Source of the DNA: Psychroflexus sediminis
Lineage (GTDB): Bacteria > Bacteroidota > Bacteroidia > Flavobacteriales > Flavobacteriaceae
Length of the DNA stretch: 64,000 nt
Assembly: GCF_900099815.1 (NCBI RefSeq)
Contig: NZ_FNCW01000001.1
Span: 191,933 to 255,932, forward strand
Direction of reading: 5' to 3'
Under the pieces are notes generated by a model that worked only from the letters and a program-made list of their open reading frames with translations, was not told the DNA's origin and did no database searches. Both the position numbers and the translations under genes were made by a program. Shown one piece after another: positions 3,033 through 5,026 of this stretch. The first letter of the stretch is position 1, and every line of letters starts with the position of its first letter.

Positions 3033-3758
3033 TTAAACTTCGGTCAATTCTTTATTCCAGACCAGGGAGAGTTTCTTAAGAGACTCAAAAAGCATTTCAA
3101 AAGAAGAAATAACATAGTAGTCTTCTTGCATGATATCTGTTCTAAAGGCTTTTTGAATAATGGCTTCAATAGAATAGTCTAGAAAATTAGCTTTTTGCTC
3201 GTGAATTTGAATGGTCTCGCTATAGGAAGATAAAATACCAGCTCCGTAAGATTGGATTTTTCCTTGTTCCTGGATGACACCAAATTCTATGCTAAACCAA
3301 TACAAGCGCTGAAGTTGAAGAAGCTTTTCTGTATCATCCAGAAATTGACAGCCCAGTTTTCCAAATTCATGAACAAATTCAGAAAATATAGGATTACTCA
3401 ACAGCGGTACATGGCCAAAAATATCATGAAACATATCTGGTTCTTCCAGATAATCCAGGCTGTCTTTGGAGCGGAGCCAGATAGAAGAACAAAATTTACG
3501 CTGGGCTAAAAGTTGGAAAAAGTCCTGCACAGGGATAAGTCCGGGAACAACCTCCAGTTTCCACTTGGTTTCATTTTCAAACCAAGTATTGATTTTTTTG
3601 AAATTTGGTATCTCTTCAGCATTCAAAACCGGAGACATATGTTCTAAAGCATCGGTATAGGCCTGAGAGGATTTGCCGGGGATATTCTCTTTTTGCCTGG
3701 TAAACAACGTTCTCCAAACCCATAAATCTTCCTGAGTGTACTTTGACATGTCTTGCAT
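3033..3758 (-). CDS. phhA: Phenylalanine 4-monooxygenase (aromatic amino acid hydroxylase)
   Basis: The enzyme hydroxylates phenylalanine to tyrosine using a pterin cofactor and non-haem iron. The iron ligands are visible as HDIFGH (two His) and the Glu of YWFSIEFG, and the conserved EPDMFHDIFGHVP block is intact. At 241 residues it is a single catalytic domain without a regulatory ACT domain, as usual in bacteria. Translation may start at the ATG at 3758 (MQDMSKY) or at the next one at 3749 (MSKYTQ). The 5' leader at 3759-3932 holds a Tyr-rich mini-ORF, an alternative pairing and a terminator hairpin, so control by transcription attenuation is predicted. Confidence 0.93.
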   Translation of the reverse strand: MQDMSKYTQEDLWVWRTLFTRQKENIPGKSSQAYTDALEHMSPVLNAEEIPNFKKINTWFENETKWKLEVVPGLIPVQDFFQLLAQRKFCSSIWLRSKDSLDYLEEPDMFHDIFGHVPLLSNPIFSEFVHEFGKLGCQFLDDTEKLLQLQRLYWFSIEFGVIQEQGKIQSYGAGILSSYSETIQIHEQKANFLDYSIEAIIQKAFRTDIMQEDYYVISSFEMLFESLKKLSLVWNKELTEV

Positions 3759-3770
3759 GAGAATATTTTT

Positions 3771-3808
3771 TGTAAATAAAAATCCCGATTCAGCTATGAA
3801 TCGGGATT
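3771..3808 (-). terminator. Intrinsic terminator in the phhA leader (attenuator)
   Basis: Read on the minus strand, perfect 11-bp arms AATCCCGATTC and GAATCGGGATT enclose a 6-nt loop and are followed by TTTTTATTT. It ends about 12 nt before the phhA start. No minus-strand gene lies upstream (the neighbour at 4034 is divergent), so a terminator here makes sense only as a regulated one. Confidence 0.85.
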
Positions 3809-3837
3809 GATTTAGGTTTATTAAATTAATTACACCA

Positions 3838-3897
3838 TTAACCGATTCTAGAATTTAGAAGTGGATAATAGTAATAATATGAGTTTATATTTTTCAC
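3838..3897 (-). CDS. Tyrosine-rich leader peptide of phhA
   Basis: This 19-codon frame opens at GTG (3895-3897; another in-frame GTG is at 3901-3903) and ends with TAA at 3838-3840. It encodes VKNINSYYYYYPLLNSRIG, with five consecutive Tyr codons at 3865-3879. The gene downstream makes tyrosine. The last codons (3842-3851) form a strand, CTAGAATCGG, that can pair with CCGATTC-A-TAG at 3795-3804, the 5' side of the terminator stem. A ribosome stalled on the Tyr codons leaves this strand free, forming an antiterminator, whereas one reaching the stop would cover it. This is the classic attenuation layout. The non-ATG start is the weakest point. Confidence 0.75.
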   Translation of the reverse strand: MKNINSYYYYYPLLNSRIG

Positions 3898-3902
3898 TAA
3901 CA

Positions 3903-3932
3903 CAAAATTAGATAATATCTCAAAGTACACAA
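3903..3932 (-). promoter_or_regulatory. Predicted phhA promoter
   Basis: On the minus strand TTG (3930-3932), a 19-nt spacer and TAATTTTG (3903-3910) match the Bacteroidota consensus TTG-N17-23-TAnnTTTG exactly. A second possibility slightly upstream is TTG at 3949-3951 with TACTTTG at 3921-3927, one base shorter than consensus. The upstream one would leave a short 5' leader before the leader-peptide GTG. Confidence 0.55.
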
Positions 3933-4033
3933 ATCAACAAGTGTTAAACAAAAAAATAAATCGCGAAGCTAATTCCCTAAAATTATTGGTAATATCAATT
4001 GAGTTATTTTAATTTTCCGGAAAATCAATAGGT

Positions 4034-5026
4034 ATGAATAAAACTCACAACTGGGGAATTATAGGTCTGGGTGGTATCGCGCAAAAATTTGCTTCAGACT
4101 TACAGGATATTAAAACGGCCCGTCTCTATGCCGTTGCCTCAAGAACTCTGGAAAAAGCTCAGGAGTTCTCGTCAAAATTCAAGGTCGAAAATGCCTACGG
4201 ATCCTATGAAGACTTAGCAAAGGATCCGGAAGTTGATATCATTTATGTCGCTACACCCCATGTTTTTCATTATGAAAATACGCTCATGTGTCTCGAACAT
4301 GGTAAAGCCGTTTTGTGTGAAAAACCCATGGCAATGAATGCCAGACAGCTGAAAGCCATGATAGAACTTTCAAAGAAAAAGTCTTTGTTTTTGATGGAAG
4401 GGTTATGGACCAATTTTATGCCTCATCTTCAAAAAGTTCATCAACTTGCTCAGAATGAAACCTACGGAAAATGTCTTAAAGTGGAAGCAGACTTCTCCTT
4501 TAAGGCTGAATTTGACACAGGAAAGCGTTTATTTAATAAAGACTTAGGGGGTGGAGCTTTACTCGATATCGGGATTTACCCGGTGTATTTAGCTCTTAAG
4601 CTTTTAGGTGTTCCTCAACTTATGGAGGCTGCCAGTGAATTTTCTTCAACAGGGGTTGATGTTTCCAATCAAATAAAATTTAATTACAGTTCTGGAGCAA
4701 CCGCTCATTTGTCTTCTAGTTTTGCCAAAACCACAGCCTCCAGAGCCAGGGTTCATTTTGAAAATGCAACTGTAGAATTTGGTTCCCGATTTCATGAAAC
4801 AGATCAACTTGAGATCAGAACCAATTCAGGCGTCGATAAACTGGACTTCAATTATCCGACACACGGCTATCAATTTGAAATTGAACACGTGCAGGACTGT
4901 CTGGAAAAAGGCTTGACACAAAGCCCGGAGTGGTCGCTTCAGGCCTCTTTAGAACTGGCAGAAACCTTAGATAAAATTCGGGAAATAATGGGACTGGTTT
5001 ATAAAGAGGATAAAAGTCTGGGCTAG
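4034..5026 (+). CDS. Gfo/Idh/MocA family NAD(P)-dependent oxidoreductase
   Basis: This 330-residue protein begins with an N-terminal Rossmann fold (GIIGLGGIAQKFASDL) and has the family signature EKPMAMN near residue 97, where the Lys is the catalytic/binding residue. A C-terminal alpha/beta substrate domain follows (GGGALLDIGIYPVYLAL). Members oxidise or reduce sugars, inositols or dihydrodiols, and the substrate here is not deducible. It is divergent from phhA. A perfect 14-bp palindrome ATTTTCCGGAAAAT (4012-4025) lies 8 bp upstream of the ATG and might be an operator. Confidence 0.9.
   Translation: MNKTHNWGIIGLGGIAQKFASDLQDIKTARLYAVASRTLEKAQEFSSKFKVENAYGSYEDLAKDPEVDIIYVATPHVFHYENTLMCLEHGKAVLCEKPMAMNARQLKAMIELSKKKSLFLMEGLWTNFMPHLQKVHQLAQNETYGKCLKVEADFSFKAEFDTGKRLFNKDLGGGALLDIGIYPVYLALKLLGVPQLMEAASEFSSTGVDVSNQIKFNYSSGATAHLSSSFAKTTASRARVHFENATVEFGSRFHETDQLEIRTNSGVDKLDFNYPTHGYQFEIEHVQDCLEKGLTQSPEWSLQASLELAETLDKIREIMGLVYKEDKSLG

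Follow-up and report, generated by a model that had tools for sequence, protein, structure and literature searches.

The phenylalanine hydroxylase gene (phhA) of Psychroflexus sediminis is very probably controlled by a ribosome-mediated leader-peptide transcription attenuator, which would sense charged Tyr-tRNA and regulate phhA as a tyrosine-making gene. The element lies on the minus strand of the 64-kb stretch of DNA analysed here (hereafter, the window), and its parts are listed in Table 1. We infer that transcription begins just ahead of a short leader open reading frame (ORF), which would be translated. When Tyr-tRNA is ample, the ribosome would reach the stop codon and cover segment 2, the 3:4 terminator would form, and phhA would be off. 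When Tyr-tRNA is scarce, the ribosome would stall in the Tyr run and leave segment 2 free, so that 2:3 pairing blocks the terminator, and readthrough into phhA would allow tyrosine to be made from phenylalanine. On RNA without a ribosome, a 1:2 hairpin, in which the Tyr codons pair with sequence just past segment 2, would favour termination. It is further fairly likely that this is the first ribosome-mediated attenuator to read tyrosine alone, that it occurs across the class Bacteroidia, and that it marks PhhA as biosynthetic.

Table 1. Features of the phhA leader and of a related leader in the same genome (window positions unless stated)
Feature	Position	Strand	Basis
phhA, biopterin-dependent phenylalanine hydroxylase, 241 aa, proposed controlled gene	3033..3758	minus	PF00351, E 1.2e-42
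Promoter-like site: TTG (3932-3930), 22 nt, TAATTTTG (3910-3903)	3903..3932	minus	pattern match
Leader ORF, 19 codons, GTG start (3897), MKNINSYYYYYPLLNSRIG, stop TAA (3840-3838)	3838..3897	minus	ORF reading
Five consecutive Tyr codons TAT TAT TAC TAT TAT, proposed sensing codons	3865..3879	minus	sequence
Segment 1: Tyr codons and CC, 5' half of 1:2 hairpin	3863..3878	minus	fold, covariation in 19 sequences
Segment 2, antiterminator arm CTAGAATCGG (core GAATCGG, 3848-3842)	3842..3851	minus	complementarity and arm-swap tests
3' half of 1:2 hairpin (GG, U, UAAUGGUGUAAU)	3829..3843	minus	fold, covariation
Segment 3 core CCGATTC: terminator 5' arm and segment 2 partner	3798..3804	minus	folds
Intrinsic terminator stem-loop (3:4), 12 bp, loop of 4	3781..3808	minus	terminator call, pairing and covariation
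Terminator T-rich tail	3774..3780	minus	sequence
Phe+Tyr leader and terminator before pheA operon	L151 4842-4961, contig C18, same genome	minus	

Most of the parts had been described in an original prediction made from the window alone. The 19-codon frame with its five consecutive Tyr codons is present as described, as is CTAGAATCGG with its pairing to the terminator arm. Two details need correction: the partner CCGATTC-A-TAG spans 3804-3794, one nucleotide beyond the lower end given originally (3795), and the T-tailed terminator before phhA has a stem of 12 rather than 11 bp. The terminator stem lies 22 nt before the phhA ATG, and since the gene upstream of the leader (4034-5026) is divergent, it cannot serve an upstream message. 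The motif (TAY)5 is unique to the leader on both strands of the window and occurs twice in the 2.97 Mb genome, in the phhA leader and opposite an 829-aa frame. The 138-nt leader region folds with z = -4.9, a value owed mostly to the terminator; the part before the terminator, folded alone, reaches z = -1.8, and 11 of 200 shuffles fold equally well. It is conservation, rather than the fold score, that decides that the leader is real. The closest named relatives of the window PhhA, among the matches listed, are from Psychroflexus, with up to 88% identity.

Bacteroidota promoters follow the consensus TTG-N17-23-TAnnTTTG. The predicted promoter does fit this pattern, which is loose, with 17 matches over the two strands of the window, so that the match alone proves little; a scan for E. 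coli-type promoters lists none on the minus strand at the leader. Among homologous leaders, TAnnTTTG lies 3–23 nt before the start codon in 59/75 (mean 2.75 and maximum 6 in shuffles that preserved base composition only, not dinucleotides), which lends indirect support to a transcript start upstream of 3897; the leader ORF should therefore open the transcript at its very 5' end. Just upstream of the promoter-like site, and overlapping its edge, GTTTAACACTTGTTGATTTG (3930-3949, minus strand) is nearly unchanged in the closest Psychroflexus genomes and was not seen in more distant relatives. It contains the inverted repeat AACA-CT-TGTT and is possibly a regulator site.

Tyr leaders recur widely upstream of phhA. 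We collected phhA loci from relatives, from a named genome collection (best 80 of 583 relatives, a part of the sample biased to close relatives), and from even samples of the order (phhA match in 11/395 genomes) and of the class (59/395). Dropping 22 redundant entries from these 162 loci, which did not include the window's own phhA upstream region, left 140, and dropping two under 200 nt left 138 upstream regions. A Tyr-rich short ORF (8–45 codons, at least three Tyr in five codons) is found in 78/138, vs six on the antisense strand and two to five in each of five dinucleotide shuffles; under a stricter rule (at least four Tyr in five) the counts are 40/138 and 0. Control genes from the window and the named loci carry such an ORF at 1/228. 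Chance occurrence of the Tyr ORF was rejected, as the antisense, shuffle and other-gene controls all lie far below 78/138. The 78 leaders start with ATG (76) or GTG (two), and a T-tailed terminator follows 18–41 nt past the stop in 75 of them, as against 0–3 in five shuffles that kept mononucleotide composition only. In one of the others (L158), the hairpin fails the T-tail rule.

Leader and terminator together occur in 20/57 class-sample genomes outside the home genus, and Tyr leaders reach as far as records named Crocinitomicaceae, Fluviicola and Saprospiraceae. The peptide beyond the Tyr run is not conserved among them. Counted against the attenuator model, 60/138 regions lack a Tyr-rich ORF by the rule used, including that of a genus member (G018, L010); some of these 'leaderless' regions (L048, L069 and L076) show weaker Tyr leaders by eye. 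Two of the loci carry labels that look wrong: CP034120.1 (L090), titled Glaciecola amylolytica, has a Flavobacteriales-type phhA with leader, and CALPVI020000127.1 (L069), titled Actinomyces viscosus, also has a Flavobacteriales-type phhA.

A codon-rich leader ORF and an intrinsic terminator between leader and gene are thus both present; comparison and folding add an antiterminator that excludes the terminator and that a stalled ribosome would free. With the window leader masked through its Tyr codons, segment 2 folds onto the terminator arm by seven base pairs (GAATCGG:CCGATTC) and a further CTA:TAG across a bulged A. Taken sequence by sequence, segment 2 is complementary to the terminator 5' arm at p ≤ 0.05 in 44/75. 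When terminator arms are swapped between leaders, the own arm fits segment 2 better than in all 10,000 permutations, and the result holds in 44 representatives under 70% PhhA identity (15.9 vs 13.5, sd 0.34; 0/10,000). The pairing arms of the leaders co-vary with each other instead of staying fixed. Among 19 close relatives, the 2:3 pairing is 94% paired, and two-sided changes are absent from this nearly invariant segment, which we count against the model.

The placement of segment 2 argues for a stalled ribosome. It starts 12–19 nt past the last Tyr codon in 63/75 sequences and 33/44 representatives, and among the latter its position varies with an sd of 4.8 nt from the last Tyr codon vs 9.5 nt from the stop codon, while its reading frame differs between lineages. 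A fixed spacing from the Tyr codons with a varying frame is what a stalled-ribosome device demands, and peptide conservation does not explain it. A ribosome halted in the Tyr run would leave the antiterminator segment just ahead of it, whereas in the window leader one that has reached the stop codon would cover the segment; these positions support the stalling logic originally proposed. That proposal had named leaders without Tyr codons and alternative stems as the outcome that would speak against it, and the homologues show the opposite in their Tyr-rich ORFs (78/138), terminators (75/78) and, by arm swap, alternative stems.

Our analysis goes beyond the original prediction in its fourth segment, in the spread of the leader through the class, in the sibling leaders and in the link to missing tyrA. 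When the leader before the terminator is folded, the Tyr codons and CC pair with GG-U-UAAUGGUGUAAU just past segment 2; this 3' half overlaps the end of segment 2 and the leader stop codon, and segment 2 is partly held in the 1:2 hairpin as well. In 19 related sequences 87.3% of cells in this hairpin are paired, compared with 82.5% in shuffles (0/500 reach it), which kinship can lift the pairing above, and with 33–54% in slid versions used as a further control; two-sided changes number 22 vs 10.1. Outside these close relatives the signal is weak (12/75 at p ≤ 0.05), which counts against the model.

Masked folding is consistent with the proposed switch. We folded the transcript as it stands before segment 4 is made, masking the ribosome footprint, in 75 sequences (L074, with fewer than five pairs in 2:3, was left out of the counts). 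The median 2:3 probability is 0.04 without a ribosome and rises to 0.97–0.98 when one occupies the Tyr codons; values of 0.5 or more are reached by 68/75 sequences for a ribosome at the first Tyr codon and by 67/75 for one at the last. With the ribosome at the stop codon the median is 0.00, a value that follows from the mask wherever the mask covers segment 2. Three results count against the model. Placing the ribosome at the last Tyr codon fails to yield 2:3 in 8/75; ribosome-free RNA reaches a 2:3 probability of at least 0.5 in 22/75; and in the window leader, folded without a ribosome before segment 4, the 2:3 probability is 0.41 and 2:3 is in the minimum-energy fold, so that termination is no more than a possible default for ribosome-free RNA.

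Leaders of the same design precede other amino-acid operons. Within the window's own genome, the operon pheA-aminotransferase-tyrA-DAHP synthase opens with a Phe+Tyr leader, MTTRFYFYFNFYFADPAKRG, followed by a terminator, one arm of which pairs with GAAACGAGG in that leader. Among relatives, a Phe/Tyr-rich ORF is found in 28/30 pheA upstream regions (31 loci given, one not located) and in 1–5 shuffled ones. A covariance model built from 19 phhA leaders ranks the phhA leader first in 16/16 leader-bearing genomes of the genus, largely by construction, as most of these are in the model. Ten further matches, comprising the next nine best in 60 relatives and one more in this genome, include five His-codon leaders (THMHHHF, NHHHHF, etc.) laid out like the phhA leader before hisG (L214, L215, L216, L220 and L221; HisG was identified by Pfam for one locus and by reading for the rest). 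The other five look like chance matches to ordinary terminators. One attenuator layout carries three kinds of codon run, each matching the product of its own operon. Phe-only pheA leaders had been expected in tyrA-less genomes; they are clear in G059 alone (F7 Y0). In the other tyrA-less genomes, Phe predominates over some Tyr in the pheA leaders, one leader has the two in equal measure, and several regions gave none or were not located, so that the expectation was dropped.

In the class sample, the leader also goes with a missing tyrA. Among the 57 class-sample genomes outside the genus, which are not phylogenetically independent, a strong tyrA (PF02153) match is absent in 20/20 with leader and terminator vs 23/37 others (present in 0/20 vs 14/37; Fisher p 0.001), and at ≥90% completeness it is present in 0/16 vs 14/25 (p 0.0001), under a rule for a strong match that was chosen after the results had been seen. 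Counted at the curated cut-off, tyrA is present in 1/20 vs 14/37 (p 0.01), and at E ≤ 0.001 in 7/20 vs 16/37 (p 0.58). The weak matches, from seven leader-bearing class genomes and one of G818, carry a pyrroline-5-carboxylate reductase dimerisation domain in 8/8 cases and are thus not tyrA. Of the named leader-bearing genomes checked, 15/16 lack a strong match. The link fails in Flavobacterium gelidilacus (L057) and in the home genus, where 11/16 leader-bearing genomes, that of the window included, keep tyrA and 5/16 lack both tyrA and pheA. The prephenate dehydratase domain of pheA (PF00800) has no match in 13/20 leader-bearing class genomes (9/16 of the complete ones), although a diverged dehydratase could be missed; it is matched in 10/10 tyrA-bearing genomes tested (10 of 14 given).

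Six near-complete genomes of the genus (G003, G017, G019, G020, G021 and G023) match neither PF00800 nor PF02153 and are predicted from their gene content to be phenylalanine auxotrophs; five have phhA with the leader, and G019 has none. At three loci (L081, L085 and L101), phhA lacks its own leader and stands last in an aromatic operon, (trpB)-trpA-DAHP synthase-phhA, in which trpA and DAHP synthase were confirmed by Pfam in L081 and trpB by reading. The pterin dehydratase that PhhA requires is present in the window genome, which keeps both tyrA and HPPD. PhhA is therefore not its sole tyrosine route and, with HPPD present, may have a second, catabolic role there. Genetic support for PhhA as a tyrosine-making enzyme comes from Echinicola vietnamensis, according to the accessible part of one study (PMC7311316).

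These observations bear on the alternatives to attenuation by Tyr-tRNA. Nascent peptides can sense free amino acids, as TnaC does tryptophan, and the Tyr-rich peptide could likewise sense plentiful free phenylalanine or tyrosine, stall, and turn phhA on for degradation. We give this account a slim chance. The window genome does have HPPD, and PhhA is catabolic in other bacteria as far as the part seen of PMC1173090 describes, but the leader peptide is not conserved beyond the Tyr run, a single fixed arrest site has no need of three to six Tyr codons, sibling leaders carry codons of amino acids that their operons make, and in the class sample the leader sits in tyrA-less genomes (20/20). Slimmer still is the chance that the main role lies away from phhA, with the short terminated RNA or the leader peptide working on other targets as a small RNA or small protein and phhA control secondary. 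Its support is precedent only, a Sinorhizobium leader peptide acting in trans (PMC7298713, seen in part), whereas what is conserved here is the Tyr run plus the pairing arms, and these arms change in step with each other instead of remaining fixed. Least credible of all is chance, by which an ordinary terminator and a Tyr-like repeat would simply have fallen together in AT-rich intergenic DNA: TAT-rich runs are likelier in such DNA, and the promoter pattern turns up often (17 matches in 64 kb), but the antisense, shuffle and other-gene controls and the arm-swap test contradict it.

If control by Tyr-tRNA attenuation is true, cells without tyrA, some of them also without prephenate dehydratase, would import phenylalanine and make tyrosine as animals do, with the tyrosine-from-phenylalanine route under codon-level feedback. 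The leader would then let the genome sequence alone tell biosynthetic PhhA from catabolic, tyrosine-making enzymes from phenylalanine-degrading ones, where each gene otherwise has to be examined individually. Leader-peptide attenuators would gain tyrosine as a sensed amino acid and a hydroxylase as a target, and a single layout would serve his, phe/tyr and tyr genes in Bacteroidota.

RNA families in Rfam do not account for the leader. None of 4227 Rfam families matches the window at gathering score, and permissive thresholds give nothing credible; Trp_leader (RF00513) was rejected at 19 bits (E 0.18, gathering threshold 41 bits) as a likeness of shape only. Tyr T-boxes are known from Firmicutes, and a T-box riboswitch was rejected, as no Rfam T-box matches the window at gathering score or among the permissive matches. 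One Rfam family, RF01692, is a candidate Bacteroidetes leader RNA associated with an aromatic amino-acid operon; neither it nor any other Rfam family scores above threshold on the window or on 15 leader-bearing loci. RF01692 is listed as the Bacteroid-trp RNA motif in the part consulted of PMC2864571. Our search of the full-text literature, with supplements and most subscription journals outside its reach, found no leader before phhA and no Tyr-codon attenuator, in keeping with the original view that leader-peptide control of phhA is not known to be described in Bacteroidota.

Some published systems come close. According to the accessible part of PMC7311316, Dyella, Legionella and Echinicola vietnamensis form tyrosine by way of phenylalanine hydroxylase; PhhA makes tyrosine there as proposed here, one of the three is a member of the Bacteroidota, and regulation is not mentioned in that part. 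For Flavobacterium psychrophilum, of the same phylum, clues to leader-peptide attenuation of amino-acid operons have been reported, along with conserved 5' elements ahead of pheA and hisG, and the main text searched contains neither phhA nor tyrosine in this connection (PMC9723704, seen in part). Going by the pheA and hisG leaders described above, those candidates share the layout of the phhA leader.

The classical leader-peptide attenuators are those of the enterobacterial trp, his, pheA, ilv, leu and thr operons. Leader-peptide attenuation itself is therefore classical; what would be new is the sensed amino acid, the target gene and the spread through Bacteroidia. Like the enterobacterial attenuators, the phhA leader combines a short ORF in which the product's codon is repeated with an antiterminator and a terminator that cannot form together. 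A hairpin engaging the codon region, as in those attenuators, is a candidate further element. Unlike them, its codons are those of tyrosine alone, its ORF begins 3–23 nt past the promoter element in 59/75 sequences, and its target would be a one-step hydroxylase rather than a chorismate-branch operon.
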